Origin: Cyclobacterium xiamenense
GTDB lineage: Bacteria > Bacteroidota > Bacteroidia > Cytophagales > Cyclobacteriaceae
Assembly: GCF_009467825.1 (NCBI RefSeq)
Contig: NZ_WIOK01000004.1
Span: 62,001-126,000, forward strand
Reading direction: 5' to 3'
Length of the DNA: 64,000 nt
This document shows positions 32,671-51,318 of the stretch, one piece after another (within the stretch, counting starts at the first letter, position 1; each line of letters opens with the position of its first letter). The position numbers and the translations under genes were made by a program. The notes beneath the pieces are model-generated. The model did no database searches, had not been told where the DNA came from, and saw only the letters and a list, made by a program, of their open reading frames with translations.

Positions 32671-32736
32671 CAAACCTAGGGAATACCGAGGAAAGGGATT
32701 GCGTCAAATGTTCCAAAAAGCGGTACAGATGTTTCC
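32671..32736 (-). promoter_or_regulatory. regulon promoter A: 21-bp direct repeats plus -7 box
   Basis: Reading towards the 30032 gene: GGAAACAT (32736-32729), then exactly 21 bp on TGGAACAT (32715-32708), then 30 bp on a perfect -7 box TAGGTTTG (32678-32671). This is the same layout as sites B-G. The leader would be about 215 nt. Confidence 0.75.
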
Positions 32737-33178
32737 TGGCTATACCTATCCGGTTGTAAGTCGATAAAGAAACTCCTGCGTTTCAAGCAATCTTTTTTCG
32801 ATCTTCTTCCGATTCGGTAGCTCTCGATACCCATTTACTACTGGAACAGCCAAAATTTGTGGACCAGGTGAATCGAACCAGATGCGTCGACTGTCGTCTG
32901 CACAACGGGCGGCTTGGATTAAAAACCGATTAGAGGATTGCTGTTTCGGAAGGACAATCTGCTTGACCAGTAGATGTCTTCCACTGAAAATTTAAAGGGT
33001 CCGTTTTTAGTTTTCGGGTCAAAGTCACTGGTATCAGATCCTATATGGGAGGTGCCAGAATCATGGGTTCTTTACCTGTTCTACCCCTCAGTCTGCTGAC
33101 GTTGGGAGTCTGGAGCCGTTTTGACTTTCTATTTGAGGTTTTTTCACCGAATATATTAGTCGGAAAATACCGATACGA
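32737..33178. other. non-coding interval between divergent regulon promoters A and F
   Basis: No ORF here has recognisable features. It is AT-rich and bounded by regulon promoter A (minus) and F (plus). Possibly decayed sequence; I see no transposase remnant. Confidence 0.4.
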
Positions 33179-33245
33179 AGTAACAGAAGTCCAAGTTTTT
33201 GAAACAAATGTATTAACCAAGACAGTCTTTTTTGCCCTAATTTTG
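33179..33245 (+). promoter_or_regulatory. regulon promoter F: 21-bp direct repeats plus perfect -7 box
   Basis: AGTAACAG (33179-33186) and TGAAACAA (33200-33207) are 21 bp apart, followed 31 bp later by TAATTTTG (33238-33245), an exact TAnnTTTG. The distal repeat is the weakest in the set (five of the first seven bases). The next gene, DUF2306, starts 312 bp downstream of the -7 box. Confidence 0.65.
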
Positions 33246-33557
33246 AGAAAGTAATCCCGATGATGTGTTAGGCGACTACCAACATGGAGACAGCTACTGG
33301 TAATCCTTACCCTGTTGAAAGGCCGCTTTAACCTGAGTTAGAAATAAGTTAGATTATCTAAAATCATTACAGTTTCTGCTCATCGTTTACGCGAAGTCCT
33401 GTTTCGCTAGCCGAGGCACGGAGCTTCTGACGCAGGCGGCAGGAGTTATTTGGTTTGACAACGGACTACCTGCATTCGAAGGAGTTGCATTAGATCTCTT
33501 TGCAAGACAGTTTAGATTGAAAGAAAAAAACGAACAGTCACTTTAAACCTCACTAAG
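33246..33557 (+). other. long leader or decayed gene between promoter F and the DUF2306 gene
   Basis: About 310 bp that should be transcribed from promoter F. It contains no ORF with a start codon longer than about 15 residues; one start-less open frame of about 60 codons ends at a TAA before 33550 and resembles nothing I know. It may be a leader RNA or a deleted gene. Confidence 0.35.
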
Positions 33558-34229
33558 ATGGATTCGCTATCGCTAAAGACTAACGTATTTCGAAAGCCGC
33601 TTCAAATGGCCTTTTTGCTCTTATTGATTTATTTGGCCTACATGGCCTTGTACCACGGTATAAGGGGGTTGGCTTATTTTCAGAACAATTCCAATACAGT
33701 AATAAATCCCGTTATTCTTTTGGCACATATTGGAACTGGTTTCATAGCTCTTGTAATAGGACCTTTGCAATTTTCGGGCGGACTGAAGAAACGCTACCTA
33801 AAAGCCCATCGCAGGGTCGGCAAAATCTACTTGGTAGCAGTCCTCTTAAGCGGTATTTTAGGCCTTTTAATGGGAACCTATCGGACATTCTTCCTCAATC
33901 AAGTTGTTTTTGGTACAGGAACAATGGGGCTTGCTTTGGCGTGGCTTACTACAGCTATTGTCGCGTATAGTTATATACGGAACGGTCTGGTGGAAAAGCA
34001 TAAGGAGTGGATGGTTCGCAACTATGTGGTTACTTTTGGATTCGTAACGTATCGGATTGGGGCTGATTGGATGATCCAGCATGGCTTTAGTGGGCAGGAT
34101 TCAACCGTTATGGCTTGGTTATGTTGGGTACCTCAGTTAATGTTGGTGGATTATTTTTTTCAGCTAAGAGGCCAACATAAACGCCAAAAAGGCAACACCC
34201 TTGAAACCGAAGGAATGGCAAAACTTTAG
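33558..34229 (+). CDS. DUF2306 family membrane protein
   Basis: 223-residue inner-membrane protein with about six hydrophobic segments (MAFLLLLIYLAYMALYHGI, PVILLAHIGTGFIALVIGPL, IYLVAVLLSGILGLLMG, GTGTMGLALAWLTTAIVAY, and weaker later ones). The conserved KAHRRVGKIYL and EKHKEWMVRNYVVTFGFVTYRI runs, with their His and Arg residues inside the membrane half, are those of DUF2306 proteins. That family is of unknown function, with a fold reminiscent of quinone- or heme-interacting membrane proteins. It is the only plausible target of regulon promoter F. It ends before promoter E of the hybrid kinase gene. Confidence 0.82.
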   Translation: MDSLSLKTNVFRKPLQMAFLLLLIYLAYMALYHGIRGLAYFQNNSNTVINPVILLAHIGTGFIALVIGPLQFSGGLKKRYLKAHRRVGKIYLVAVLLSGILGLLMGTYRTFFLNQVVFGTGTMGLALAWLTTAIVAYSYIRNGLVEKHKEWMVRNYVVTFGFVTYRIGADWMIQHGFSGQDSTVMAWLCWVPQLMLVDYFFQLRGQHKRQKGNTLETEGMAKL

Positions 34230-34445
34230 TACAAGCTATCTCTCTTTCAAGCTCCTCCATAAAAACCAATCAGGGGTTTGGCGAAGGGCAGGGTGCGAAA
34301 TTTTCTTTAGCGGAGTTATTAGTTTTATTCAATGCAATACCTTGCCTACCGCTTTCTCCCCTAACTAGTTTCAGGGATTTATTTAACGGAATACCTATTG
34401 ATAGGTGCCTTAAATAAGATTAACCACTATTTTAATAATTTTGAA

Positions 34446-34511
34446 TGGAACGATTGTTTTAATCTTTGAAACATATGTATTAGCAACCGCCGGTAAATAT
34501 AAGTAGCTTAA
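34446..34511 (+). promoter_or_regulatory. regulon promoter E upstream of the hybrid sensor kinase gene
   Basis: TGGAACGA (34446-34453) and TGAAACAT (34467-34474) lie 21 bp apart; 30 bp after the second is TAGCTTAA (34504-34511), a weak -7 box in exactly the position seen at the other sites. An unrelated TAATTTTG (34436-34443) just upstream is an alternative -7 box. If real, the kinase activates its own gene. Confidence 0.55.
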
Positions 34512-34591
34512 AGGGTGAAAAAGCCAACTGGAGCGAAGTGAAATCAATCGCCAGAAAAGGGCCGGTGTTGGATCGTAATCGTGCCGAAAAG

Positions 34592-37500
34592 ATGGCTAAA
34601 AAACCTGTTTGTTGCATGAGGAAAGTAATGCTTGTTTCGCTTTTGTTATTCGCGGTATCCACCAAGAGTCAGGCGGTGATGCCGCAAGATAATGACCCGA
34701 TATTCCAGCGTTTTTCAATTCAGGAAGGGTTGAGCCACAACAGCGTTTTATGCATGATTCAGGATAGACGAGGATTCCTTTGGATCGGAACCTACGATGG
34801 CCTGAACCGTTTCGATGGCTATCAGTTCAAGGAATACAAGCACGATTACCAGGATTCCACAACGATTTCCCAGAACCTTACCATGGCTTTATATGAGGAC
34901 AATAAGGGCTTGATTTGGGTGGGTACCGCTGGGGAGGGCTTGTGTTATTTTGATCCTCAAACCGAAAAATTCACCCGGTATCCCCTTGTAGTCGAAGAAA
35001 ATGGGGCCTATGAAGACGTACCAACGATAAGTTCTATCCAAGAGGACGTACATGGAAACATATGGGTAGGCACCATCTATGGGTTGTTTAAACTAGAACC
35101 GGATAAAAAAACGGCTATTCACATTCCCTTGAGTTCATCGAAGCTGATCATTAACAGCGTTACACGGGACAGGTCCGGGAATATTTGGGTGGGGACCTCT
35201 AAAGGGTTATTCAAAATCCCTTGCGATGATCCTACATCCTTTATTCACTGGAAGCACGATCCGGAAGTAGCGGAAAGTATCGCCAGTGACGATGTAATGG
35301 CTGTGTTTGAAGATCATCGAGGAACATTGTGGATTGGATACATCGGTGGACTGGATAGTTTGGACCGAAAGACCAAAGAATTTATTCATTACCGGCATGA
35401 TCCATACGATTCGAATTCGTTGAGTACCGATATCCTAAATTCGAAGGCCATCACCGAAGATCAATGGGGAAATCTGTGGATTGGAACCACTAAAGGGCTG
35501 AATAGGCTAAATTCAGAAAGAACTGTTTTTACGCGCTACCATTCAGAACCCAATAATGTACACTCGATAGGCAGTGACGACATCCATGCTGTCCTACTGG
35601 ACAAGATGGGTAACCTATGGGTTGGTACAGTGAATGGGGGTATAAGCTTATCCAATCTGCAACCACGGGAATTTTACCTGATTCAACATCTACCGGATAA
35701 TCCCAATTCGTTGAGCAGTAACCTGGTGCGGTCGATTTATGAAGACACGAATGAAACCTTGTGGATTGGAACCGAGGGCGGAGGCTTGAATAAATATGAT
35801 CGGAAAAACGGAACCTTCACTCATTTCAACCACGAGCCAGATAACCCGAAAAGCCTTTTTAATGACTTGGTTAGTTCCGTTTTGGAAGACAGTAAGGGTA
35901 ACTTTTGGATAGGCTACGGGGGTAATAATTTTCTTCTCAACGTGGGAGGTGTAAGTAAAGTCGATAGCGCCTCCTCAAGTGTTACGCACTATGATATTCA
36001 AGCCGCAAGGGATTCCGGAGGAGATAGGGACGTGGTGGCTATTTTTGAAGATAAACGTGGTACCATTTGGCTAATCACTCAAAATGGTTTAAAACGATTT
36101 TCAGAGGAGACGGATACCTGGGATCATTTTTTACACGATACCTCTAATCCGGAGGGAATCAGTGATTTTTGGTGTTACGCGATTTTTGAAGACAGCAGGG
36201 AGGAGTTATGGATCGGAACCGGCGCTAACGCGCTGAACAAAATGGACAGAGAAAGAGAAGGCAGGTTTCAACATTTTACTGCTAACCCCAAAGATCCGAC
36301 CAGTTTGAGCAGTCATTCGATCAGACATATCGTAGAAGATAAGCACGGCTTTTTGTGGTTTGCTACGAGTGGAGGAGGAATATGTCAATATGATCCGCAA
36401 ACAGGGACTTTTACCCCTTTTACAACAAAGGATGGGCTCCCTAGTAATACCATTAACCGCATCGAAATAGACGAACAAGGGAAGTTCTGGATGAGTACGA
36501 ACAAAGGCATATGCCGTTTTGATCCTGAAACAAAGGAAGTGCAACGTTTTGACTTGGGATATGGATCGTTGAAGCATCACTTTACGACGGGATATTTCAA
36601 TGCAGGGTCCAGCACCAAAGGAAAGGACGGCACCTTGTATTTCGGGGGCAGTGATGGGGTAGTTTACTTTCATCCTGAGCAAATTGCGCCTGCCCCTAAT
36701 CCCGCTCCCGTAGTGCTAACCCGGTTCTCTGTATTCGATACGGCTGTGCCGGAATGGAATGAATCCATGGATATCGTCCTGCCCCACGACCAAAACTTCA
36801 TTTCGCTGGAATTTGCGGCGTTGAGTTTTGTAAATGCCCAAAACAACAAGTATGCGTATTTCTTAGAAAATTTCGATCAGGACTGGATTTACTCGGAAGA
36901 TCGACGATTTGTTAGCTATACAAATTTGAGTCCAGGCAACTATGTTTTCAAGGTAAAATCCTCCAACTATGATGGTGTCTGGAGCGATCCGGGAATCAAT
37001 TTGAACCTTACCATACTACCACCCTGGTGGAGCACTTGGTGGGCTTATCTGCTTTTTCTGCTAGTGGCAATTTTAGCCTTATATTGGATGAGAAGAAGCA
37101 TTATCTATTGGGAACGGATTAATTCCGACCTGAGGTTTCAACGACTCGAAGCCGAAAAAATGCACGAGTTGGATCGGGCGAAATCGGCATTTTTTGCAAA
37201 TATTTCCCATGAGTTTCGGACTCCGCTGACCTTAATATCTGGAACGGCGGAGTCGCTGAAAAAGAAAGAAGGAAGATGGGCGGAGGACGTTGAACTCATT
37301 GAAAGGAATGCTTCTAAGCTTCTTCAGTTGATTCGTAAACTGCTAGACCTTTCCAAGCTTGAGTCAGGAAAACTTAAAGTAGCATGCAAACCGGGTAGTA
37401 TCACCTCTTTTTTGGAGACAGTGACCGGTTCCTTTATTTCACTCTTTGAAAGTCGGGACATCTATTTCTACACGGACCTGCCTGAAGAGGAAATCATTGC

Positions 37501-38788
37501 TTCTTTTGATGCGCACAAGCTTGAAATGATTTTTTCGAACCTTTTATCGAATGCCTACAAATTTACCGCTAGCGGAGGAGAAGTAAGCTTCTCGGCCGAG
37601 GTAAGGACGGAAGGTGTAGATCGGCTCAGGTTAAGTGTAGCGGTAAAGGATACCGGAATTGGTATTCCGTCGGACAAGTTAGATCATATTTTCGAACGGT
37701 TTTATCAAGAAGAATCTACCAATACCAGAAGCTACGAGGGTACCGGTATTGGGCTTTCTCTGGTGAAGGAGCTTACCGAACTGATGGACGGCCAAGTTTC
37801 TGTACAAAGCACTGTTGGAAGAGGGTCTGTATTTTTTGTGGAAATCCCCCTAAAGCGTGTAGATCCGCTTGCGGTTGACCTGATTTCCGCGGGGCATCAT
37901 CACATTTTCTCCCCGGCGGTAGAAGAAAAGGCCACTGGGGAGCTAACTACCGAAGGCATAAACTTACCAACTGACGCTGGTAGACCGAAGCTATTGGTGG
38001 TGGAAGATAATGTAGATCTAAGGAATTTTATGCGCGGACAACTTCAGGGTGCCTATTCTATTTTGGAAGCGGAAAATGGTCACTTAGGAGTACAGAAAGC
38101 CTTGGCTTCGTTGCCTGACCTGATCATCACAGATTTGATGATGCCTGAAATGGATGGGATTCGGTTATGTGAAAAACTAAAGAGCGACGACCTTACCAGC
38201 CATATTCCGATAATTCTACTAACGGCAAGGGCAGATACGGAAAGCAGGCTCGAAGGGCTTGATATGGGAGCAGATGATTACCTGACCAAACCATTTAAAA
38301 TCGAAGAACTCTCGGCGAGGATAAAAAATCTTCTCGAATCCAGAAGAAAATTAAGAGAAAAGTTCCAAAATGGATTCTCTTTAAACCCCATAGAAATCAC
38401 AGCAACCTCTGTGGAGGAAAAATTTATGCAAAGGCTTTTCGATATTATGGAGGAGCATCACACGGATCCGGCTTTCGATTTGGAAAAGTTATGTAAGGTA
38501 ATAGGCATGAGCCGAACCAACCTCTACCGTAAATTAAAAGCCATCATTAACCAATATCCCACCGAGTTTATCCAGTCTTTTAGGCTTAAAAAGGCCGTTA
38601 TGCATTTTAAATGCCGTTCTGGAAATATCAGCGAAGTGGCGTACAGTGTCGGGTTCAATAGTCTAAGCTATTTTACAAGAATCTTTAAAAAACACTATGG
38701 GGCGACACCCACCGAGTATATACAACAGTTTTCAGAAACTCAACTTGTAACCGACAATCATCAAAAGCATGAAAAAAGGAATGATTAA
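34592..38788 (+). CDS. hybrid two-component system regulator (HTCS) with AraC output domain
   Basis: About 1398 residues from ATG 34592; an ATG at 34616 that starts directly at the signal peptide (MRKVMLVSLLLFAVSTKSQA) and a GTG at 34538 are alternatives. Order: signal peptide; periplasmic two-component propeller repeats (HNSVLCMIQDRRGFLWIGT and about a dozen like it); Y_Y_Y domain; one membrane helix (WWAYLLFLLVAILALYWM, coded near 37040); HisKA with FANISHEFRTPLTLI; HATPase (DTGIGIPSDKLDHIFERFYQ, EGTGIGLSLVKEL); receiver with acceptor Asp in LIITDLMMPEMDG; AraC-type HTH (MSRTNLYRKLKAI, EVAYSVGFNSLSYFTRIFKKHYG). It senses a ligand in the periplasm and activates transcription from the inner membrane. 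A probable controller of the 21-bp repeat regulon. Confidence 0.95.
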   Translation: MAKKPVCCMRKVMLVSLLLFAVSTKSQAVMPQDNDPIFQRFSIQEGLSHNSVLCMIQDRRGFLWIGTYDGLNRFDGYQFKEYKHDYQDSTTISQNLTMALYEDNKGLIWVGTAGEGLCYFDPQTEKFTRYPLVVEENGAYEDVPTISSIQEDVHGNIWVGTIYGLFKLEPDKKTAIHIPLSSSKLIINSVTRDRSGNIWVGTSKGLFKIPCDDPTSFIHWKHDPEVAESIASDDVMAVFEDHRGTLWIGYIGGLDSLDRKTKEFIHYRHDPYDSNSLSTDILNSKAITEDQWGNLWIGTTKGLNRLNSERTVFTRYHSEPNNVHSIGSDDIHAVLLDKMGNLWVGTVNGGISLSNLQPREFYLIQHLPDNPNSLSSNLVRSIYEDTNETLWIGTEGGGLNKYDRKNGTFTHFNHEPDNPKSLFNDLVSSVLEDSKGNFWIGYGGNNFLLNVGGVSKVDSASSSVTHYDIQAARDSGGDRDVVAIFEDKRGTIWLITQNGLKRFSEETDTWDHFLHDTSNPEGISDFWCYAIFEDSREELWIGTGANALNKMDREREGRFQHFTANPKDPTSLSSHSIRHIVEDKHGFLWFATSGGGICQYDPQTGTFTPFTTKDGLPSNTINRIEIDEQGKFWMSTNKGICRFDPETKEVQRFDLGYGSLKHHFTTGYFNAGSSTKGKDGTLYFGGSDGVVYFHPEQIAPAPNPAPVVLTRFSVFDTAVPEWNESMDIVLPHDQNFISLEFAALSFVNAQNNKYAYFLENFDQDWIYSEDRRFVSYTNLSPGNYVFKVKSSNYDGVWSDPGINLNLTILPPWWSTWWAYLLFLLVAILALYWMRRSIIYWERINSDLRFQRLEAEKMHELDRAKSAFFANISHEFRTPLTLISGTAESLKKKEGRWAEDVELIERNASKLLQLIRKLLDLSKLESGKLKVACKPGSITSFLETVTGSFISLFESRDIYFYTDLPEEEIIASFDAHKLEMIFSNLLSNAYKFTASGGEVSFSAEVRTEGVDRLRLSVAVKDTGIGIPSDKLDHIFERFYQEESTNTRSYEGTGIGLSLVKELTELMDGQVSVQSTVGRGSVFFVEIPLKRVDPLAVDLISAGHHHIFSPAVEEKATGELTTEGINLPTDAGRPKLLVVEDNVDLRNFMRGQLQGAYSILEAENGHLGVQKALASLPDLIITDLMMPEMDGIRLCEKLKSDDLTSHIPIILLTARADTESRLEGLDMGADDYLTKPFKIEELSARIKNLLESRRKLREKFQNGFSLNPIEITATSVEEKFMQRLFDIMEEHHTDPAFDLEKLCKVIGMSRTNLYRKLKAIINQYPTEFIQSFRLKKAVMHFKCRSGNISEVAYSVGFNSLSYFTRIFKKHYGATPTEYIQQFSETQLVTDNHQKHEKRND

Positions 38789-39095
38789 ACTCAGCGTATT
38801 GTATCCGAACGTAGATGACGCAACCTTCAATATGGATTACTACTGTGATCACCATCTTCCCTTAGTAAGAAGCTTGTTGGGAGATCATTGTAAAGGCGTT
38901 GAAGTGGAGAAGGGGCTGGCAGGATTGCCCCCCCCTGATACCCCGGCCCCCTACATCGTATGCGGCCATTTATTCTTTGATTCAATGGCGGATCTACACG
39001 TGTCAGTGAATGCAAACCTCGAACAGATGGTTGGCGATATCCCCAACTTTACTAATGTCCAGCCTGTGGTACAAATTGCTGAGGTGGTGATGTGA
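38769..39095 (+). CDS. EthD-family protein
   Basis: 108-residue dimeric alpha/beta-barrel protein of the EthD type. The hallmark NMDYYCDHHLPLVRSLL (about residues 21-37), with the conserved Tyr and His, and the ending VQPVVQIAEVVM are typical. Related ferredoxin-like dimeric barrels take part in ether degradation, polyketide cyclisation or heme/catechol chemistry, but many have no assigned reaction. The frame from 38769 overlaps the kinase gene by 20 bp; the internal ATG at 38781, giving MIKLSVLYPN like its relatives, is equally good and leaves an 8-bp overlap. Either way it is translationally linked to the HTCS gene. Confidence 0.82.
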   Translation: MKKGMIKLSVLYPNVDDATFNMDYYCDHHLPLVRSLLGDHCKGVEVEKGLAGLPPPDTPAPYIVCGHLFFDSMADLHVSVNANLEQMVGDIPNFTNVQPVVQIAEVVM

Positions 39096-39197
39096 AAAAC
39101 GCTATGGCATCTTTACCATATGTTTTATTCAGTCAGTTAACGCCTATCCATCGGTGTTCATTAAGTTGGCAATCGTTGATTTTTAAAGCTACATAGC

Positions 39198-40698: not shown

Positions 40699-41805
40699 TT
40701 AATCTGTCAATTCGTTACGAAATCCCTGTTTTTTCGTTGCTACCTGGTAAAGTGTTTTTCTGGCAGTTATAAAGAGTGTGTTGCTCCATTGGCCGGTTCC
40801 GAAGCATAGGTTGGACGGTACATTTTCTGGGATTCTTATTTCTGTGAGCTTCTCACCTTTTGGCGAATAGACAGCAATACTGCCGTTCAGAAGCGCCAGG
40901 TACAGATTGCCGTCCGAATCAACGGTCATTCCATCAGGACCTCCTTTTTCAAAATCAATCAATACGCCCTGGTACGCTACTGTCCCATCGGGAAGTAGTG
41001 AATATTCCAGCAGGGAACCTTTTATCGCCGGCTGTGGACCGTCGAAGCCTCTTGGCAGCGAACCCGAGATTCCGGTTCTTCCGAGATTAACCAAGTATAT
41101 TTTTTTCTGGTCAGGGGAAATGGCGATACCGTTAGGTTTACCGGCATTTGCACCGACGAGATGGACCGATTTATCGGGATCTATTCGGTAGATTCCATCC
41201 ACGGGCTGATCGATTGATTCCCTACCGAAATAGCGGGGATCAGTAAAGTAGATTCGGCCCTTGCTGTCAATTACCAGGTCATTTGGTGCGTTAAACTGCT
41301 TTCCATTAAAAAGTGCGGCCAATAGGGTGCTCTTACCAGTTTTCATGTCTGTTTTTACCACCCTTCGTCCCCCGAAATCTGCGCCTTCACAAGCGATTAG
41401 GTTTCCTTCGCTATCAAATACCAATCCGTTGGCCATCCCACTAGGAGACCGAAATACCTTTGCCTCGCCGGTTTGGGGATTATAAGTCCAGATGATTCCC
41501 GCTTTCATTCCTTCAACATCGGTAGCGGTAATGTCCGTAAAATATAAGATACCTTCCGGTGACATAGCCGGCCCTTCTAGCAATACGCCTTCTCCACCGG
41601 AAAACACTGCTCTAACCGTCGCACGCGGATCAATGATGTCGGCGGCGGATAGGCTGCTTTGTCCGTAGGATACCGAGTTCAGCGTACTACTTGCGGCCAT
41701 CAATAGCCCACAGATCACACCTATTGCCCCCGCTAGCGATTGTGGCCTTCTCTTCGTATTTTCTGCCTGTTGGGAGGCATTCCCACCCACATTAACCGTT
41801 CGCAT
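40699..41805 (-). CDS. SMP-30/gluconolactonase/LRE family lactonase, exported
   Basis: 368-residue six-bladed beta-propeller hydrolase that opens sugar lactones with a divalent metal. An N-terminal hydrophobic segment (AGAIGVICGLLMAASSTLNSVSYGQ) acts as a signal peptide. Metal-site positions are visible: the first-blade Glu in LLEGPAMSPEGILYFTD, Asn in FNAPNDLVIDSKGRIYFTDPRYFG, and Asp in GGPDGMTVDSDGNLYLAL. The length is normal after signal removal. The ATG at 41805 overlaps the end of the upstream FAD oxidase gene by 14 bp, so the two are one operon driven by regulon promoter B. A flavoprotein oxidase that makes a lactone followed by a lactonase is a chemically sensible pair (inference). 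Confidence 0.9.
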   Translation of the reverse strand: MRTVNVGGNASQQAENTKRRPQSLAGAIGVICGLLMAASSTLNSVSYGQSSLSAADIIDPRATVRAVFSGGEGVLLEGPAMSPEGILYFTDITATDVEGMKAGIIWTYNPQTGEAKVFRSPSGMANGLVFDSEGNLIACEGADFGGRRVVKTDMKTGKSTLLAALFNGKQFNAPNDLVIDSKGRIYFTDPRYFGRESIDQPVDGIYRIDPDKSVHLVGANAGKPNGIAISPDQKKIYLVNLGRTGISGSLPRGFDGPQPAIKGSLLEYSLLPDGTVAYQGVLIDFEKGGPDGMTVDSDGNLYLALLNGSIAVYSPKGEKLTEIRIPENVPSNLCFGTGQWSNTLFITARKTLYQVATKKQGFRNELTD

Positions 41806-43183: not shown

Positions 43184-43270
43184 AAAAATGGGGGTTTGGT
43201 TGAATTGTGTTTGTTACCGTCCCGAAGCAATCGGCTGGTACAGGGTATTCACGCCGTTGAAGGGGCGAAG

Positions 43271-43336
43271 TAAACCTAAGAAAAAGAGCAAAAAAGGAGT
43301 AGGCCATATGTTCCAAAAACCGGTGTAGATGTTCCA
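43271..43336 (-). promoter_or_regulatory. regulon promoter B: two perfect TGGAACAT repeats plus -7 box
   Basis: Reading towards the FAD oxidase gene: TGGAACAT (43336-43329) and TGGAACAT (43315-43308), 21 bp apart and both perfect, then 30 bp on TAGGTTTA (43278-43271), one base off TAnnTTTG. Spacing is identical to site A. Confidence 0.78.
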
Positions 43337-43942: not shown

Positions 43943-44008
43943 TGAAACAAATAGCTTACAAATAGAAACATATGTACTACATGGATGAGTCGATACACGA
44001 TACCTTTG
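43943..44008 (+). promoter_or_regulatory. regulon promoter G: 21-bp direct repeats plus perfect -7 box
   Basis: TGAAACAA (43943-43950) and AGAAACAT (43964-43971) are 21 bp apart, and exactly 30 bp later comes TACCTTTG (44001-44008), a perfect TAnnTTTG. It would start transcription near 44013, ahead of the flavoprotein remnant and the SDR gene. Confidence 0.72.
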
Positions 44009-44062
44009 TAGGAATAGATAGCCAGTCAGTTTAAATCAATTGTATACTTCATTCACGCGTAC

Positions 44063-44254
44063 ATGGAAGTTTTCCAACAAAGACTACCGATTGAGGTCTG
44101 GGATGAACTCGTTCGTTCGGTTTCCGGATCTGTTGTATTCCCCCATTCAGAGCACTACGATACAGCAAGAGCTAGTTGGAATGGCATGCTTGATCGAAAA
44201 CCGATGGAGCGGATCGTGTACGGGCGGCATACGGAGATAATTGTGAACGGTTAA
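44063..44254 (+). pseudogene. remnant of a second FAD-linked oxidoreductase (N-terminal fragment)
   Basis: A 63-residue open frame starting MEVFQQRLPIEVWDELV. Its middle, SGSVVFPHSEHYDTARASWNGMLDRKP, matches the N-terminal pattern of BBE/PCMH-type flavoproteins; the intact gene at 41792 has RGALLLPDLEGYNQSRTIWNAMIDKYP in the same place. The frame ends at TAA soon after, and the following 135 bp before the SDR gene contain none of the rest of the FAD domain. It is therefore best read as the stub left by deletion of a paralogous oxidase, still placed behind an intact regulon promoter. A functional short protein is possible but less likely. Confidence 0.55.
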
Positions 44255-44389
44255 AGCAGCTAAAACAAGAATTCGATCCCAAAAACTGCTTTCGGTGCAA
44301 TAACACCATCGCTCCCTGGCCAGAGGGTTGTTTTCCTTTCCAGACAGAGATTACCAGATAAACCCATCTACACCTAAACAAAATATCGT

Positions 44390-45268
44390 ATGAAAAAAGT
44401 ATTAGTAACCGGAACAAACAGAGGGATCGGAATGGAAACCGCCCTTGCTTTTGGCCGTGCTGGCCACCAGGTTTTTGCTACCATGCGAAACCTGGAAAAT
44501 GCAACCGAACTTATGCGCAACAGCAAACAGGAATCCTTGCCAATTTCCATCTACCAACTGGATGTAGATTCGGATGAATCCGTCGCACAGTGCATACAGG
44601 CAATTACATCCGATCATGGGCCCATTGATGTACTGGTGAACAATGCGGGCATCGAGCGTCATGGCTCAGTAGAGGAAATGCCCATGGCAGACTTTCAAGC
44701 CGTCATGAACACCAATTATTTTGGGGTGGTCAGGTGTATTAAGGCTGTTTTGACATCCATGCGGAAAAAAAATAGTGGCTGTATAATCAATATAAGTTCT
44801 ATATCTGGTAAAATTGCTTGTACCCCGTTGGGAGCCTATAGCGCCAGTAAATTTGCACTTGAAGCCCTGACCGAGACGTTGGCACAAGAAGTAAAGCCCT
44901 ATAATATCCGAGTATCCGTCGTTGAGCCGGGAGTAATTAATACCGAAATGCCAATTAGTATCACCCAAAAGAGTTCTTCTTTTTATCCGCAAGTTCGTCG
45001 AATGGGGAGTTTTTTTTCCGAAATACTCAAGACTCCAACACCAGCGTCTATTGTCGCAGACCAAATCCTTGAAATAGCAGAGAGTGGCACATGGAAATTA
45101 AGGCATACCGCAGGACCCACAGCTGCACCTTTTTTGGACTGGCGTGCTTCAATGACTGACGAGCAATGGGTGGATTGGAACGCGCAGGAGGATACCGATT
45201 GGTACGATGCCGTAGAAGCTACGTTCGGCATGAATTGCCGGCCCGAGAAACTGGAAAAGGAAAAGTAA
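44390..45268 (+). CDS. short-chain dehydrogenase/reductase
   Basis: 292-residue classical SDR, an NAD(P)-dependent cytosolic oxidoreductase. Motifs: TGTNRGIG for cofactor binding (residues 7-14), DVLVNNAGIERHG, the catalytic Ser in IINISSISGKIA, and YSASK (Tyr and Lys of the catalytic tetrad) in LGAYSASKFALEAL, followed by VEPGVINTEM. No acidic residue at the end of strand 2 is obvious (FATMRNLENA, with an Arg), which suggests NADP(H) preference. It probably oxidises or reduces an alcohol/ketone in the same pathway as the FAD oxidase. Regulon promoter G lies about 380 bp upstream with only the oxidase remnant between. Confidence 0.9.
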   Translation: MKKVLVTGTNRGIGMETALAFGRAGHQVFATMRNLENATELMRNSKQESLPISIYQLDVDSDESVAQCIQAITSDHGPIDVLVNNAGIERHGSVEEMPMADFQAVMNTNYFGVVRCIKAVLTSMRKKNSGCIINISSISGKIACTPLGAYSASKFALEALTETLAQEVKPYNIRVSVVEPGVINTEMPISITQKSSSFYPQVRRMGSFFSEILKTPTPASIVADQILEIAESGTWKLRHTAGPTAAPFLDWRASMTDEQWVDWNAQEDTDWYDAVEATFGMNCRPEKLEKEK

Positions 45269-45278
45269 ACCAACTCAG

Positions 45279-45307
45279 ACCCTTGAGGTTTCCAAAACCT
45301 CAAGGGT
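45279..45307. repeat. perfect 13-bp inverted repeat after the SDR gene (REP-like or terminator)
   Basis: ACCCTTGAGGTTT and AAACCTCAAGGGT pair perfectly around CCA, 10 bp after the SDR stop. No T-run follows, so termination would not be classical. Palindromes of this AACCTTTGAGGT type are common between genes in Bacteroidota as dispersed elements (recollection). Confidence 0.65.
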
Positions 45308-45316
45308 TAATCAGCA

Positions 45317-45445
45317 TGCAGACCTTTGGGGTTTTCCCAACCCCGTATTCTATACCAGAGTGTTCACGAAAAAACCTCCGGGTTCTCAAAGACCCCAAAG
45401 GTTTAAGAACGTTGAGGTTTCCCAACTCTGTATTTGGTGTTGTGT
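45317..45445. repeat. cluster of degenerate palindromes related to the preceding repeat
   Basis: Contains ACCTTTGGGGT (about 45322) and its inverted copy ACCCCAAAGGT (about 45392), a small GGGGTT/AACCCC hairpin, and two direct copies of a TTGGGGTTTTCCCAAC-like block (near 45326 and 45411) followed by GTATT. Base changes in the second copy partly preserve pairing. The remaining gap to 45541 shows no gene. Confidence 0.45.
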
Positions 45446-45541
45446 TAAACTTAACTATTAATAATTCCCCGTAGTAAGCTGTTCGATCAGTTGATTTGTT
45501 CCATATGGTGCGACCAAAAGATCAATTCTTGTTTCCCACCG

Positions 45542-47953
45542 CTACTTGACATCCATCCGTTTCCGATCTTCTTCGGAAGCGGATTCTATTTTTACAGATT
45601 TCAACGTTTTATTTCCAAATGGACGCGAATAGTTTAGCATAAAGGTCCTGTTTCTCAAATAATAATCGTTCTGCATATGGAGGGGCGGTTCCCGAAATAC
45701 CACACCATTCAAAAGATTATTGGTGTTGAGTAAATCCGTGATTGCCAGCCGAATGGTTCCTTTGTCCCCGACAAGTTTTTTTTGGACCCCCAGATTCAGG
45801 GATCCTACGGGCCGAAAAATCAACAGGCCCCAGTTTCTTCTGGATTGAAAATTTCCCCCTACCTCCGCCGTATACCCATTACCAAGCATAAAGGTATTGC
45901 TCAGGTTCAAATTAAGATCGAAAACGGCATCCCGTTGATTCAGGGGTAAGTGCGCTGTTTCAAAACTTCTCCAATTCAGCCGAAGTGAAGACTGTAAATC
46001 CCAGTTGGCAGCAATAATCCAGGGAGCCGAAAAAAGCAGTCCGGTGGATTGAAGATACCGAAGGTTTTGGGGACTATACGTAACCAGTTCGTTTTTTGGG
46101 TCATAACTGGGTTGAAAAGGAGCAATTTCATTTTCCGTATAACTGTGTTCGAGTGCTACGGATGCCCGTTTGTAGGTTAGCTCCAGTTTATATGTGTCAA
46201 TAATTGATGGCAACAATGCGGCATTGCCGTCAAATTGCGTGTTTTGATTGATAAGCAATACGACAGGTACCAGGTCTCCCAAGGAGGGGCGGGTGATTCT
46301 TCGGTAGTAGCCCAAAGCCATAGCTGTATTTTCATTTAGGTTTTTCTGTATCAGGAGAGAGGGAAATAAATTTGCGTAATTTCTATTAATATCCCCTTTT
46401 ACATTGCCATTTTCAATGTCCGTGAGCGTGTGTTCATATCGTAATCCTACTTTAAAGTCTAGCTTGTTTCCTGCTTTCCAATCGCCACCGATATAGGCTG
46501 CTGAGACGATTTCCTGCACATGAGCCGAACCGGCCAGGATGGAACCGAGTTCCCCGACACCATTTTCATCGTAAGTAGACTGTATGGAGTTATCAAAGTC
46601 CATCCAGGATCTTTTTGCGCCTGCTTTGAGGTTGATGCCTTCGGCAGGTTGAAACTGGTAGTCTAAGGCAGCGATATGAAAGTTCATTGGTGCATAACTC
46701 TCCAAATCAAACTGGATGGCTTCGCTTTGTTCGGCGAAATAAGCGGCATTGTCATAGGTGGAAAGATTGTCCAGCTGAAGGGTCACCCAGTCGTAATCTA
46801 TTCTGAATGTATGTTTGGCCCACGGCTTAAAAGAATAATGAATGTGGGAACTTTGATTTGATATATCTCTAGATTCATGGTACAAAATGTCCGTTCGAAC
46901 GAGTGAATCGCCAACCTGAAGGATTGTCCCACCCTCTCCTCTCATGCTGTTGTTATTTTGTGTCAAATTGATATAGGCACCGATTTCGGATTTTTTGTCA
47001 AAGGTTTTTTGGATACCCACTCGGAACTGATGGGATTGCGAGAGTATGGCCCGATCTGTATCGCTTTGAAAGGATTTCAACAGCCCGCTCAGCGACTCGG
47101 AACGAAAGGCGTTTTGCCACAGAAGTACATTGTGGGTATGCAAATAGGCGTATTCGGCAAAAATAGAAAAGGATTTTCCCCTATGGGCGAGGCTTAAATT
47201 TGCACCATAGACTTCAGCTCTTTTTGCTCCGGCACTCAAGCCGAAGGTACCGTTGGTTCCGAAGTCGGTGCTTTCTTTGGTAACGATGTGTATGATGCCA
47301 CCGGCCCCTTCCGCATCCAGGTTGGAGGGTGGCTGGGATATCAGTTCTATTTTCTCCACATTGGCAGCGCTCATTCCCTGCAGCATTTGCATAAGGGATG
47401 CCATGGGAATTCTGCTCAGGGTATTGTTAATCATGACCATCACGCCCTCCCGGCCGTTTAGCGCGATGCTGCTTTGTTGCTGATTGACCATCACCCCTGG
47501 AGATCGGGACAGCACCTCCAAGACGGAACTTCCCGCCGCGGTGATGCTTTCCTGCACGTTTACCACCATCCGGTCCATCTGTTTTTCATACAGGGGCTTT
47601 TGGGCAGCCACGACTACTTCGGCCAGTTCGTCCTCACCTTCCATAAGTACAACAGGGGGTACGATGAGCCCTTCGTCCCGAGGTACCCGGATCTTGTGCA
47701 GGTATGCGCGAAACCCCACGGACGTTATTGAGAGCAGGTAGTCGTCGGCGGCAACCCGGTCAAAACGAAAACTACCGTCGACTTCAGAGACTGACCCCGC
47801 TACCAAAGAGGAGTCTTTTACGGCTAATATTCGTACGTTCGCGTAGGGTAGGGGGCTGCCATTTGCTTCGGTTACGGTGCCGGTAAGTTGGCTTTGCGCG
47901 GAAAGGATGACAGGCATTCCAGGCAACACGTACAGCAGGATAAGGTATCTCAT
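45542..47953 (-). CDS. outer-membrane beta-barrel (TonB-dependent-like) receptor, paralogue of the 30032 protein
   Basis: 803 residues from ATG 47953; the TTG two codons earlier is unlikely. Signal peptide MRYLILLYVLPGMPVILSAQ, then a carboxypeptidase-like domain (LTGTVTEANGSPLPYANVRI), a plug region (ESITAAGSSVLEVLSRSPGVMVNQQ; ANVEKIELISQPPSNLDAEGAGG) and an outer-membrane barrel with the family run YYRRITRPSLGDLVPVVLL. The 30032 protein has matching blocks (SITAAGLSILEMLDRSPGV; YGRRITRPSFNEMAPFALLL), so the two genes are clearly paralogous. It is presumably an importer for a regulon substrate. Promoter D lies upstream, and the second hybrid kinase is the next gene on that side. Confidence 0.9.
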   Translation of the reverse strand: MRYLILLYVLPGMPVILSAQSQLTGTVTEANGSPLPYANVRILAVKDSSLVAGSVSEVDGSFRFDRVAADDYLLSITSVGFRAYLHKIRVPRDEGLIVPPVVLMEGEDELAEVVVAAQKPLYEKQMDRMVVNVQESITAAGSSVLEVLSRSPGVMVNQQQSSIALNGREGVMVMINNTLSRIPMASLMQMLQGMSAANVEKIELISQPPSNLDAEGAGGIIHIVTKESTDFGTNGTFGLSAGAKRAEVYGANLSLAHRGKSFSIFAEYAYLHTHNVLLWQNAFRSESLSGLLKSFQSDTDRAILSQSHQFRVGIQKTFDKKSEIGAYINLTQNNNSMRGEGGTILQVGDSLVRTDILYHESRDISNQSSHIHYSFKPWAKHTFRIDYDWVTLQLDNLSTYDNAAYFAEQSEAIQFDLESYAPMNFHIAALDYQFQPAEGINLKAGAKRSWMDFDNSIQSTYDENGVGELGSILAGSAHVQEIVSAAYIGGDWKAGNKLDFKVGLRYEHTLTDIENGNVKGDINRNYANLFPSLLIQKNLNENTAMALGYYRRITRPSLGDLVPVVLLINQNTQFDGNAALLPSIIDTYKLELTYKRASVALEHSYTENEIAPFQPSYDPKNELVTYSPQNLRYLQSTGLLFSAPWIIAANWDLQSSLRLNWRSFETAHLPLNQRDAVFDLNLNLSNTFMLGNGYTAEVGGNFQSRRNWGLLIFRPVGSLNLGVQKKLVGDKGTIRLAITDLLNTNNLLNGVVFREPPLHMQNDYYLRNRTFMLNYSRPFGNKTLKSVKIESASEEDRKRMDVK

Positions 47954-48011
47954 GGTCAAGATCGTTTACAGGTTCTGTGCTTTATGTTGAAAGCAAGTGG
48001 AAACTAAAAAT

Positions 48012-48078
48012 GAAAAGTACGGATTTTGATCAGGCAGGAGTTAGTACAGATGTGTCAACAAGTTGTACAATTGGGGCA
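48012..48078 (-). promoter_or_regulatory. regulon promoter D upstream of the second outer-membrane receptor
   Basis: Reading towards the 45542 gene: TGCCCCAA (48078-48071) and TGACACAT (48057-48050) are 21 bp apart, then 31 bp on TACTTTTC (48019-48012), one base off TAnnTTTG. Both repeats are followed by TGTAC after two further bases. The repeats are weaker than at A-C, but the spacing is kept. Confidence 0.55.
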
Positions 48079-48167
48079 AACTGTTAGTATGTGGGTTGTC
48101 AAGGGTCGGCGTACCTTGTTACGTAAAAATTCTCAGCGGCTGGGGTACGTCGGTTACTATCCCGTAT

Positions 48168-49940
48168 TTAATGCACCAGGTATTCTGACGGTGTTTTTCC
48201 AAACTGTTTCTTGAAGCACTTATTGAAATACGATAAGCTGTTAAACCCGACCGCATAGGCCACCTCGGTAATATTTCCCGATTTTTGTTCCAGCAGGTGC
48301 TGGGCCCGTTTCAGCCGAACTGCCCGGATAAACTCGGTAGCCGAATGGTCGGTCAATGCCTTGAGCTTTCGGTGCAGGTTGGTCCGGCTCATGCCAATTT
48401 CCCGGCTAAAAAATACAACGTCAAAATCCGTATTCGCAATATTGTCTTCTAGGATCGCCATGGCTTTTTTCAGGAATTTCTCATCGGTGGAAGTTACGGC
48501 GATCTCGGAGGTTTTCAGATCAAGCGAACGGCTGAACCGTTCCCGGAGTTTTTTCCTGCCTTCGATAAGGTGGTGTATCCGTACCCGAAGCTCTTTCATA
48601 TCGAAAGGTTTGGTCAGGTAGGCATCTGCACCCGTATCCAGTCCGCCGATTTTGCTTTCCGAATCGGCGCGGGCGGTAAGGAGGACAAAGGGGATGTGGC
48701 TGGTCCGCTCGTCGTTTTTCACCTTTTCACTTAGGTTAATGCCGTCCATTACGGGCATCATCACATCGGAAATAATCAAGTCCGGTACGCTTGTAGCGGC
48801 GATCGTAAAGCCCTCTTGTCCATTATCGGCTTCCAGGATCCGGTACTGGTTTTGCAGGCTTTGTGCGAGAAAATGCCGGAGTTCCGGATTGTCTTCGACG
48901 ATTAGCACGGTAGTCCTGATCGCCAGGTGGTTGAGGGAGCGTTTCCCGGCTGGCTTTGGTGCTTGCGGTATCCAGGCGGTATCCAGTGCGCCCTCCGATT
49001 GCTTCAGCCCGGGAATCGCTCCGGGTTCGGCCCGCTCCAGGGTCAACTCAACGGTGAAGCAGGTTCCCGAATCGGGGCTGCTTTCCACCTGGATGGTTCC
49101 TCCCTGAAGCTCGGTGAGTTCCCGGACCAGTGCCAGGCCAATCCCGGTACCTTCGTAGCTGCGAGTGGCCGAAGCCTCTCCCTGGAAAAAGCGGTCAAAG
49201 ATATAGGGCAACCTTTCGGCGGGGATTCCGATGCCGTTGTCGGCGATTTTGAATTGTAGCCGGACGTCTGCTTCGGTTTGGGCCGGGCAGGAAACGTCAA
49301 ACCTGACGGTTCCGGAAGTTGGGGTGAATTTGTAGGCATTGATCAGGAGGTTGGAAAGCACCTTCTCCAATTTATCGGGATCAAAATTTAGGTAGATCGG
49401 GCCTTTGGGATAACTGCCGGAAAAAGCGATTTGCTTGCTCTCAAACTGGGAGGAAAAGGTGCCGGCCAGTCTTTTGGCAAAGCCGACGATTTCTCCGGGT
49501 TCCTTTTCCAGGGTTAATTTGCCAGCTTCCAGTTTGGAAAGGTCGAGCAACTGGTTGACCAATTGGAGCAGTCGATCGGCGTTTCTTTTTATCAGGCGAT
49601 GGCTTTCCTGCAGGATTGAAGGAGATTTTTGTTCGTCCTCGAGGCGGTCCACCGTGCCGGAGATCAGGGTAAGGGGGGTTCGGAATTCGTGGGAAATATT
49701 GGCAAAAAAGTCCGATTTGGTTTTGTCCAGGTCGCGCATTTTTTCGGTTTCCAGCCGTTTTACCTCCATATCCAACAGGCTTGTTTGTAGGGACCGCTTG
49801 GTTTGGGCATATTCGACCGCTAACAATGCAGAAAAGGAAACGGCTGCAGAAAATACGGCCAAATCCAATGTGATGGCTGTATCATAGGGAAACCCTGGTA
49901 ATACGTTGCCATGGAACAAGCAAAATAATGACCAGAACAC
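48168..49940 (-). CDS. hybrid kinase, C-terminal part (HisKA-HATPase-receiver-AraC); split from 49949 gene by a frameshift
   Basis: 590 codons from a GTG that is probably not a real start. Two membrane helices (WSLFCLFHGNVLP; ITLDLAVFSAAVSFSALLAV), then HisKA with FANISHEFRTPLTLI, HATPase (DNGIGIPAERLPYIFDRFF; EGTGIGLALVREL), a receiver with acceptor Asp in LIISDVMMPVMDG, and an AraC HTH (MSRTNLHRKLKAL; EVAYAVGFNSLSYFNKCFKK). The output half is very similar to that of the 34592 kinase. The upstream sensor ORF stops only 9 bp before this ORF; adding one T to the T7 run at 49959-49965 joins both into one frame of about 983 residues. So this is the rear half of a single gene, broken or misread here. 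Confidence 0.85.
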   Translation of the reverse strand: MFWSLFCLFHGNVLPGFPYDTAITLDLAVFSAAVSFSALLAVEYAQTKRSLQTSLLDMEVKRLETEKMRDLDKTKSDFFANISHEFRTPLTLISGTVDRLEDEQKSPSILQESHRLIKRNADRLLQLVNQLLDLSKLEAGKLTLEKEPGEIVGFAKRLAGTFSSQFESKQIAFSGSYPKGPIYLNFDPDKLEKVLSNLLINAYKFTPTSGTVRFDVSCPAQTEADVRLQFKIADNGIGIPAERLPYIFDRFFQGEASATRSYEGTGIGLALVRELTELQGGTIQVESSPDSGTCFTVELTLERAEPGAIPGLKQSEGALDTAWIPQAPKPAGKRSLNHLAIRTTVLIVEDNPELRHFLAQSLQNQYRILEADNGQEGFTIAATSVPDLIISDVMMPVMDGINLSEKVKNDERTSHIPFVLLTARADSESKIGGLDTGADAYLTKPFDMKELRVRIHHLIEGRKKLRERFSRSLDLKTSEIAVTSTDEKFLKKAMAILEDNIANTDFDVVFFSREIGMSRTNLHRKLKALTDHSATEFIRAVRLKRAQHLLEQKSGNITEVAYAVGFNSLSYFNKCFKKQFGKTPSEYLVH

Positions 49941-49948
49941 AAAACTCC

Positions 49949-51115
49949 CTAGCCAACCAAAAAAATTACCCAGGCACCTTTACTATTTTTCCGTACTGCT
50001 CTCCAGCTAACCAGAGCGGCCACTAAAGGGCCCATCGTAAGGTAATACGGCCAATAATAATTTGCTGCTTCATAAGGCCATTTCCAAGAGGGAATAAATA
50101 GCAAAGCGGAAACGGTGGCAAACCAAAACAATCGATCGAGCTTCTCTCTGGCAAATGAATACACGGCAAGTAGTCCCCATATGATGAATGTGCTAAAAAA
50201 CAAGCAACTGATCAATCCAATCACAAAATAGGAATCTCCTTCCCTGGGCATAAAGCGGAAAACATGTTCCAAAAAATACCCCAGTGCCAGACTTGACGTA
50301 AACAGGCTGTAGAAGAGATTGGTTTTATTGACGGGGAAGGTGATGAAAAAGAATAAATGAAGCAAGGCAAGGAAGAGCAAAAAAGTGGCTTTGCCAACCA
50401 ATCTGGAAGTTACAAATGCCCGTTTGGATACCAACCGTTTCACGGCCTTATCCATTTGATCCAGCTCAATAACCAAGGTTGGATTGCCTCCCCATAGTCC
50501 GAGGAAATTCATGTAGGGATTTCGTTTTGTAAATGAAAAGCGCACTGCCAAAACCTGATGGGGCTTATCTTCAAATTGAAAGCTGAAGGGGACAAAATTT
50601 GGATTATAAATGAGTTCCTTTTTGGAATCCTTGCTGACCTGTCCCAACGTATGTACCAACTTTCCATTGAGAAATAGTTCCGATGCCCCTCTTTGAAAAA
50701 TGGCCATGGACAACGGCGTGTTCAACCATGCGGAATCGACCGCTACATGCAGCCTAAACCAACCAATCTCGGCCTGTCTCAAATCTGTCAGGTAATGGAT
50801 GTCGGTAGTGGGGTCAATAGGCGACCAATCGCTGTCGTCAAAATCAGGATGTGCCCAGGAGGGATCGTCTCCCGGATGAAATTTCCAGTTCTGATTGAGG
50901 ATAATCGGATTGGTGTCAACTTCGAAAAGGATCACACTGGTTGAATCCATCGGTGTTGCTTCACTCGTATGGGAATAGAGAAAAAAGCACAACAGGCAGA
51001 TGAGCGGCAGCGGATGCACAGCTATGCTCCTATGAAAATGGACAGGAGCGAAACCAATAGCCTCCCGACAGATTCTCTTTTGTGTAAGTCTACCGTATGT
51101 AAAAGTGAAATGCAT
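49949..51115 (-). CDS. hybrid kinase, N-terminal 7TMR-DISM-like sensor part; frameshifted relative to 48168 ORF
   Basis: 388 residues from ATG 51115. A signal-like segment (HPLPLICLLCFFLYSHTSEA) precedes a jelly-roll extracellular domain with galactose-binding-like wording (NQNWKFHPGDDPSWAHPDFDDSDW; IGWFRLHVAVD; ASELFLNGKLVHTLG). This is followed by membrane helices (GKATFLLFLALLHLFFFIT; LFYSLFTSSLALGYFLEHVF; YFVIGLISCLFFSTFIIWGLL; LFWFATVSALLFIPSW). It ends abruptly inside a further helix at WVIFLVG-stop, where the other frame continues as FFGWLGSFVFW into the kinase ORF. That is the layout of a 7TMR-DISM sensor fused to a histidine kinase. Regulon promoter C lies about 140-200 bp upstream. 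Confidence 0.82.
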   Translation of the reverse strand: MHFTFTYGRLTQKRICREAIGFAPVHFHRSIAVHPLPLICLLCFFLYSHTSEATPMDSTSVILFEVDTNPIILNQNWKFHPGDDPSWAHPDFDDSDWSPIDPTTDIHYLTDLRQAEIGWFRLHVAVDSAWLNTPLSMAIFQRGASELFLNGKLVHTLGQVSKDSKKELIYNPNFVPFSFQFEDKPHQVLAVRFSFTKRNPYMNFLGLWGGNPTLVIELDQMDKAVKRLVSKRAFVTSRLVGKATFLLFLALLHLFFFITFPVNKTNLFYSLFTSSLALGYFLEHVFRFMPREGDSYFVIGLISCLFFSTFIIWGLLAVYSFAREKLDRLFWFATVSALLFIPSWKWPYEAANYYWPYYLTMGPLVAALVSWRAVRKNSKGAWVIFLVG

Positions 51116-51170
51116 CAAAAATAGAAAATTAACGATGGGTTATTTGGAAAATAATATACGAATAATTTAT

Positions 51171-51192
51171 TATACGGCTATACTTCCGTATA
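51171..51192. repeat. short inverted repeat TATACGG/CCGTATA
   Basis: 7-bp perfect arms (51171-51177 and 51186-51192) around 8 nt in the leader of the split kinase gene. Possible operator or RNA hairpin; weak evidence. Confidence 0.3.
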
Positions 51193-51251
51193 TAATTGGC
51201 TGTTAATTTTTTCTACTTTTTCCCGGTTGCTGGATTGCTATTTAAACACTA

Positions 51252-51318
51252 CCAAATTAGTAAATCAACGATACCTCCTGTTAGCACGGATGTTCCAGGA
51301 AGTTGTCCATATGTTCCA
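51252..51318 (-). promoter_or_regulatory. regulon promoter C: two perfect TGGAACAT repeats plus -7 box
   Basis: Reading towards the split kinase gene: TGGAACAT (51318-51311) and TGGAACAT (51297-51290), 21 bp apart and both perfect, then 31 bp on TAATTTGG (51259-51252), one base off TAnnTTTG. The remaining 200 bp to the sulfatase gene at 51519 shows no other clear signal. Confidence 0.7.

Follow-up and report, generated by a model that had tools for sequence, protein, structure and literature searches.

AraC of Escherichia coli binds at araI1 and araI2 to direct 17-bp half-sites that are 21 bp apart, and the promoter-proximal half-site overlaps the -35 element. Direct repeats are also known from AraC-type hybrid two-component systems (HTCSs). 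In Bacteroides thetaiotaomicron, motifs were predicted for 16 of 36 HTCSs; all were direct repeats, on average 21 bp apart, and were read as sites for dimers on one face of the DNA (Ravcheev et al. 2013, PMC3878776; this and the other papers are cited from parts of their text). The regulons had been selected for their position next to susC/susD and function in glycan use, and paralogous HTCS pairs (BT4111/BT4124 and BT4178/BT4182) were proposed to share a motif. For BT4124 and BT4663, electrophoretic mobility shift assays, with and without phosphorylation, were used to examine how the receiver-AraC parts bind promoters of polysaccharide utilization loci (PULs) (PMC11253607). HTCS genes are typically constitutive, at low levels (PMC6874557). 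Here we describe a set of direct-repeat sites in a 64,000-nucleotide stretch of DNA from the marine bacterium Cyclobacterium xiamenense (contig NZ_WIOK01000004.1, positions 62,001 to 126,000; the window) that contains two HTCS genes, K1 and K2. We think it probable (roughly 0.8) that an AraC-type activator fused to hybrid sensor kinases uses these sites as its operators, with K1 and K2 as the likely readers.

We found that each of seven sites, A through G (Table 1), has two direct repeats related to TGRAACAT, 21 bp apart, and a -7 box (TAnnTTTG) 29 or 30 bp past the 8-base core of repeat 2. An earlier note on this DNA, made from the sequence alone, had listed the seven sites. On rereading the window, we found their coordinates and orientations as listed, two perfect copies of TGGAACAT in B and in C, and a perfect TAnnTTTG in A, F and G, all as claimed. 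The box has one mismatch in B, C and D and two mismatches in E. Repeat 1 is weak in D (TGCCCCAA, four mismatches to TGRAACAT) and in F (AGTAACAG, three mismatches).

Pairs of TGRAACAT in the window were concentrated at a spacing of 21. With at most 2 mismatches in 16 positions, there were five pairs at this spacing and four at 35 other spacings (9 to 44) together. With at most 3 mismatches, there were nine pairs at 21, compared to 0-5 at each other spacing. The pattern was also rare in the genome (5.78 Mb, 97 contigs). There were eight matches to TGGAACAT-N13-TGGAACAT with at most 2 mismatches and two matches to a reversed-pattern control. Five of the eight, the ones inspected, were A, B, C and two sites beyond the window, one before an aldehyde dehydrogenase gene (C9:81889; site C9) and one before a gene for a SnoaL-like protein (C30:49621; site C30), whose SnoaL match is slightly below the Pfam cut-off (27.6 vs 28.4 bits). 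With TTTTGGAACATMTGTACTAAC and at most 3 mismatches, the matches were F and D, and the control had none. Although C9 and C30 were picked by their repeats alone, each has a perfect TAnnTTTG exactly 29 bases past repeat 2. With two unlinked genes on other contigs, the regulon extends beyond this block, and the earlier note was wrong to call it local. Positions not used for selection agree across the nine sites of the genome, with G as the third and A as the eighth base after repeat 2 (9/9 each).

We extended this to a profile of 41 sites. These comprised 23 of the 35 distinct places from a first scan (see below), 13 of 14 from a further scan of relatives, four hits from K4 (another HTCS) and G002 stretches (L111-L114), and D, which the scans miss; rows judged by eye to be chance, because they were within genes or lacked the extension, were left out. 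In this profile, the complete half-site spans about 17 bp (TTTGRAACATnTGTnCTAAY). Since the 8-mers and box served to pick most of the sites, the columns for them are biased. In the unselected columns, there was a T directly before repeat 2 in 36/41, and after repeat 2 there was a T at the second base in 35/41, a G at the third in 38/41 and an A at the eighth in 40/41. Repeat 1 had the same extension, more weakly, and the columns outside the repeats and box had little information. There was no separate conserved TTG element at -33; the end of repeat 2 occupies that place.

AraC domains are double helix-turn-helix domains, and repeats of about 17 bp with two contact blocks each are what would be expected for such a domain. 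One AraC domain would grip each repeat through two major grooves, so that two domains would lie on one side of the helix with two turns between them. The half-site nearer the promoter extends to the -33 position. Because this half-site occupies the place of the -33 element and the -7 box follows 29 or 30 bp on, the bound protein may stand in for the -33 contact and recruit RNA polymerase. The likely readers are K2, with a 7TMR-DISM sensor, and K1, with a Reg_prop sensor. The targets would be dispersed genes for oxidative small-molecule functions (FAD oxidases, lactonase, short-chain dehydrogenase [SDR], aldehyde dehydrogenase, SnoaL-like protein, and a VOC-type protein in relatives), two outer-membrane barrels, DUF2306, and the genes for the kinases themselves. 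Binding, dependence on phosphorylation, activation and the nature of the substrate are what we infer.

The sites resemble those of the B. thetaiotaomicron HTCS regulons. As in Bacteroides-type HTCS operators, two direct repeats about 21 bp apart lie upstream of the targets; the regulators are AraC-type hybrids, adjacent genes are the apparent targets and some members are distant (PMC3878776, in the parts consulted). Unlike in that organism, the expected targets here are FAD oxidases, a lactonase, an SDR, an aldehyde dehydrogenase, SnoaL-like proteins and OMP_b-brl_3 barrels. By Pfam, there was no SusD, glycoside hydrolase or lyase among the ten expected targets in this genome (OMP1, OMP2, FADox1, SMP-30, SDR, DUF2306, K1, K2, aldehyde dehydrogenase and SnoaL-like). 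Some 5 kb away from OMP1, at 20394-25232, there is a SusC/D pair, which had no site in the scan for composites (repeats plus box). The susC/susD and glycan enzymes under common control that characterize a glycan PUL are absent from these expected targets. The likeness to BT4124 and BT4663, which were studied at glycan PUL promoters, is in the AraC-type HTCS parts (PMC11253607, in part). Unlike the typical HTCS genes described in the available part of PMC6874557, both kinase genes here have sites before them. E. coli AraC differs further: it is soluble, binds sugar, is not fused to a kinase and acts at a sigma70 promoter and not at TAnnTTTG.

The earlier note had named conservation at orthologous loci beside similar hybrid kinases as support, and we found it in Cyclobacterium and Pleomorphovibrio. 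The first scan, with looser thresholds, covered 387 kb, made up of the window and 19 further stretches. It gave 38 rows (35 distinct places, 12 of which were set aside as chance), compared to 4-13 (mean 8.1) in ten shuffles. Orthologues of K2 (at least 69% identity) are present in five of 12 genomes of the genus, this one included. Orthologues of K1 are present in two, this one and G009 (72%); outside K2 proteins, the next match was at most 44% identical. A scan of the 12 genomes with the box, N29 and at most 3 mismatches gave 21 matches (controls, 3), and the N30 version gave 10 (control, 1). Ten of the N29 matches had at most 1 mismatch. They lie before FADox1 (four), aldehyde dehydrogenase (four), OMP1 (one) and the SnoaL-like gene (one). 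Among the remaining 11, four with 3 mismatches (G001, G004, G010 C64 and G011) resemble chance. Four of the 12 genomes have an aldehyde dehydrogenase orthologue (at least 90%), and all four have the site. Pleomorphovibrio marinus (G042) has sites for aldehyde dehydrogenase (83%), whose gene adjoins K2 there, for DUF2306 and for K2. P. marinus also has, beside its intact K2, an 87-aa fragment (L075:6201-6464) that is 79% identical to the AraC domain of K2. In upstream alignments, the repeats and box form a conserved island before FADox1 and before aldehyde dehydrogenase, with one row in each (G002, G112) beginning within the site. The sites before K1, K2 and DUF2306 were not registered by the automatic upstream alignments, in the part of their output listed; for these we relied on the 41-site list. 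A composite at L114:10106 (G002, contig C3) is followed on its strand only by short open reading frames (ORFs).

A VOC-type gene is preceded by a site in five genomes (G002, G009, G010, G042 and G112); it was identified by Pfam on the G009 protein, and the G042 copy is split over two ORFs. A search of the C. xiamenense genome, run without a positive control, gave no match to this gene. Just after OMP2, at 45461-45496, there is a 12-codon match to the end of the relatives' VOC protein (E 0.11, weak). Its position suggests that OMP2 may have taken the place of the VOC gene.

The sites were associated with AraC domains of the K1/K2 type. Stretches around K1/K2 clusters had 31 composites (13 stretches, 263 kb; 26 when the window is left out, 199 kb), compared to two in 31 stretches around other HTCSs (597 kb, scanned identically). 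A search of 84,980 species for the exact composite gave 23 stretches, all with Bacteroidota titles and six of them from the K1/K2 clade; in 20 of the 23 the site was outside ORFs of more than 150 aa. We also noted a signature in the two recognition helices, SRT plus GFN[ST], in 14 of 74 distinct C-terminal stretches: six K2, six K1, and two flavobacterial HTCSs directly beside exact composites. From the 23 stretches we took 16 genomes, omitting five stretches from G002, G008, G009 and G042 as well as L096 and L105. A regular-expression test for the signature missed many domains, and tblastn was used instead. Among the 30 AraC domains fetched, the signature was found in five genomes: the Cyclobacteriaceae metagenome-assembled genome (MAG) T3Sed10 (apparently the same as G112), Aequorivita, Xanthomarina, Bizionia and Algicola. 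Bizionia and Algicola had been picked by the DNA motif on other contigs, and the locus of the signature HTCS itself has four composites in Bizionia and one weak composite in Algicola. Seven of eight stretches around HTCSs without the signature had no TGGAACAA pair. Based on these results, the mechanism in the earlier note, in which AraC domains of hybrid kinases bind the sites, is very likely right in kind.

Several observations weigh against K1 and K2 as the readers or against the pattern itself. With at most 4 mismatches, pairs in the window show no excess at a spacing of 21 (28 vs 8-33). Sites D, E and F, each weak in one repeat or in the box, are unconvincing alone. They are strengthened by better counterparts in relatives: the G115 orthologues of the DUF2306 and K1 genes have better-matching versions of F and E upstream, and a counterpart of D before an OMP1-like gene in G045 has two perfect TGRAACAT repeats. 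The stretch with K1 of G009 (L038) had no composite at the stricter threshold, and the comparison of 31 with two composites leaves outside both sets three K4 stretches that have aldehyde dehydrogenase sites and one more stretch (one hit each). The signature was drawn after the domains had been seen and is a hypothesis. It was not seen among the domains fetched from 11 of the 16 motif-picked genomes, so regulators other than signature HTCSs may read TGGAACAT elsewhere. The remaining stretch of the eight, L194, has an HTCS with SRT plus GFSD and yet a TGGAACAA pair. The genome G007 keeps the site before aldehyde dehydrogenase but lacks orthologues of both kinases; the proteins there that match K1 and K2 best (39% and 42% identical) are other HTCSs. 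Finally, since K2 is frame-broken in this assembly, K1 may act alone in this strain. The break is near 49958-49964 (at a run of A within 49940-49964), where the two aligned pieces of the G008 protein meet. K2 is one open frame (966-993 aa) in G002, G008, G009, G042 and G112 and has a stop in G010. The break could be either an assembly error or a real loss.

It is possible, but unlikely, that the sites are real operators read by another AraC-type protein, either solitary or another HTCS, and that K1 and K2 are mere members. The G007 site would fit this notion, as would a solitary AraC-type gene (DUF6597 plus HTH_18) that adjoins site C30. But there is no AraC-type gene among the four ORFs beside C9 (Pfam), and the sites follow K1/K2-type loci in the counts above. 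K4, the HTCS nearest the G007 site, was considered as its reader and ruled out, as it has a different half-site, a TTGCAACAA pair of its own. The stretches of a further HTCS, K3 (G000 C54 and G008 C15), which are L043 and L044 in the control set, had no TGRAACAT composite. With K1 and K2 as the readers, there could also be two overlapping regulons, K2 reading a TTTTTGGAACATTTGGC type (A, B, C9 and C30, box TAnnTTTG at 29) and K1 a TTTGAAACATATGTACTAAC type (C through G, box at 29 or 30). In the stretches scanned, the TTTGAAACATATGTACTAAC type is the only one in G045 and G115, two genomes with K1 but without a full K2 match at E 1e-130; the TTTTTGGAACATTTGGC type is found in the K2 genomes G000, G002, G008, G009 and G042. 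However, G002 and G008, with K2 and no K1 orthologue, also have the TTTGAAACATATGTACTAAC type before VOC or K2, and G007 has the TTTTTGGAACATTTGGC type with neither kinase. There are just two K1-only genomes, and the types were sorted by eye. We consider this split doubtful.

The paralogy of OMP1 with OMP2 and of K1 with K2 might point to a dispersed repeat element or a recent duplication and not to operators. This is very improbable: the sites precede unrelated genes on both strands, and the exact composites across species were, as counted above, confined to Bacteroidota and mostly outside long ORFs. A repeat-element origin was rejected on the 41-site profile, in which the columns outside the repeats and box have little information. 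Chance, that is, a pattern over-fitted to a 64-kb window, is least probable of all and can hardly be entertained. It would account for the singly weak sites D, E and F and for the lack of a spacing excess at 4 mismatches, but not for the spacing, genome, genus and HTCS-stretch counts, the boxes of C9 and C30, or the conservation at orthologous genes. The sites, their conservation and geometry, and their association with K1/K2-type AraC domains are computed results, and operators read by K1 and K2 remain our preferred reading of them.

The genes of the cluster are listed in Table 1. K1 has the HTCS domain set (sensor, HisKA, HATPase_c, receiver and AraC-type domain) in one ORF, and K2 has it in one ORF in G008. 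The kinase that the earlier note placed at 48168 does bear an AraC domain, but it is only the C-terminal portion of K2, and site C lies before the N-terminal portion. Likewise, the SDR gene that was assigned to site G does lie downstream, but the remnant of a second FAD oxidase stands between. In relatives, site G precedes an oxidase-SDR gene pair. The SMP-30 lactonase ORF overlaps the FADox1 end, and the two genes presumably form one operon. Between K1 and the lactonase gene, at 39788-40531, there is an alkyl-sulfatase dimerisation domain by itself, probably a gene fragment.

Table 1. Sites and genes of the putative K1/K2 regulon (window positions unless a stretch is named; rep, repeat)
Feature	Coordinates	Strand	Description	Relation	Counterparts in relatives
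Site A	32671..32736	-	rep 1 32729-32736, rep 2 32708-32715, box TAGGTTTG 32671-32678	before OMP1	
Site B	43271..43336	-	perfect reps 43329-43336 and 43308-43315, box TAGGTTTA 43271-43278	before FAD oxidase/SMP-30 operon	G002, G008, G009
Site C	51252..51318	-	perfect reps 51311-51318 and 51290-51297, box TAATTTGG 51252-51259	before K2	G008
Site D	48012..48078	-	weak rep 1 48071-48078, rep 2 48050-48057, box TACTTTTC 48012-48019	before OMP2	G045 (L082:16802)
Site E	34446..34511	+	reps 34446-34453 and 34467-34474, box TAGCTTAA 34504-34511	before K1	L038:7898 (weak), L081:4790 (G115)
Site F	33179..33245	+	weak rep 1 33179-33186, rep 2 33200-33207, box TAATTTTG 33238-33245	before DUF2306 gene	L081:6028 (G115), L075:12393
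Site G	43943..44008	+	reps 43943-43950 and 43964-43971, box TACCTTTG 44001-44008	before FAD-oxidase remnant, SDR	
OMP1	30032..32449	-	outer-membrane beta-barrel, OMP_b-brl_3 with CarboxypepD_reg	expected target of A	
DUF2306 membrane protein	33558..34229	+		expected target of F	
K1	34538..38788	+	HTCS: Reg_prop/Y_Y_Y sensor, HisKA, HATPase, receiver, AraC domain		
EthD-domain protein	38769..39095	+		immediately 3' of K1	
SMP-30/gluconolactonase-like	40699..41805	-		overlaps FADox1 end	
FADox1	41792..43183	-	FAD-linked oxidase with BBE domain	expected target of B	
Second FAD-oxidase remnant	44093..44316	+	N- and C-terminal pieces without the middle	still behind site G	
SDR	44390..45268	+	short-chain dehydrogenase	expected target of G	
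OMP2	45542..47959	-	OMP_b-brl_3 paralogue	expected target of D	
K2 C-terminal part	48168..49940	-	HisKA, HATPase, receiver, AraC domain		
K2 N-terminal part	49949..51118	-	without own Pfam match; intact G008 protein has 7TMR-DISM_7TM there		
K4 TTGCAACAA repeats	L111:5489, L112:3872, L113:14780, L115:10233, L030				

We looked for a similar arrangement at other HTCSs. In five of five genomes, a perfect TTGCAACAA pair, 21 bp apart, lies near the 3' end of K4, with a box (TAGCTTTG or TAACTTTG) 29 bases past the pair. The geometry is that of the K1/K2 sites and the word is different. Other repeats at 21 bp precede TAnnTTTG boxes: TTGTTACAATAGT in Spirosoma (L195, box near 6853), TTTGGAACAATA in a Flavobacteriaceae MAG (L194:5352) and ATGTCCAAAT (L150). 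TTGTTACAATAGT and TTTGGAACAATA seem related (TTGnnACAA). It is possible, and we put it somewhat below even odds, that one promoter module is common to HTCSs throughout Bacteroidota, namely direct repeats 21 bp apart with the promoter-proximal core about 30 bp before TAnnTTTG, and that the half-site word (TGGAACAT, TTGCAACAA, TTGTTACAATAGT or TTTGGAACAATA) is set by a few residues of the recognition helices. The occurrence of these words beside different HTCSs at a spacing of 21, and the association with SRT plus GFN[ST], support this idea. Of the 17 matching repeat windows in 31 other HTCS stretches, 12, from three distinct sites, had a spacing of 21. Against a rigid module, the ATGTCCAAAT pairs of L150 fit best at 24 bp from the box and the pair of L191 lies 32 bp from it. 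A generic repeat scan also weighs against it: the scan had no hit in the window, where even A, F and G were missed, and it gave no direct repeats of any other word there or in the flanking stretches (L003 and L004).

The earlier note called the regulon undescribed. In kind this does not hold, since direct repeats of about 21 bp are described for Bacteroides HTCSs (PMC3878776, in part); for this gene set, we found no description. Among the matches listed in mostly open literature (HTCS motifs, HTCS promoters and Cyclobacterium), no title concerned this regulon or a fixed distance to the -7 box, and no title on an HTCS motif was among the matches listed for TGGAACAT in text with 'bacteroid'. The part of PMC3878776 consulted gives no distance to a -7 box, and the part of PMC10994844 consulted has nothing on HTCS operators. 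PMC12125979, in the portion consulted, deals with a Vibrio regulator that is not an HTCS. What is new here is the regulon, its non-glycan targets, the sites before both kinase genes and the near-fixed distance to the -7 box; the unlinked members are a further difference.

Our results describe a dispersed, well-supported HTCS regulon without glycan targets, in which two sensors apparently share one operator type. The motif (repeat, spacing and box) is precise enough to find members from sequence, as with C9 and C30. If the general module is true, sequence would suffice to tell what an orphan HTCS controls. Should the geometry and the connection of AraC-domain residues with the half-site be general, regulons of uncharacterised HTCSs would be predictable, and the small-molecule substrate of this HTCS regulon might be traced through its targets.

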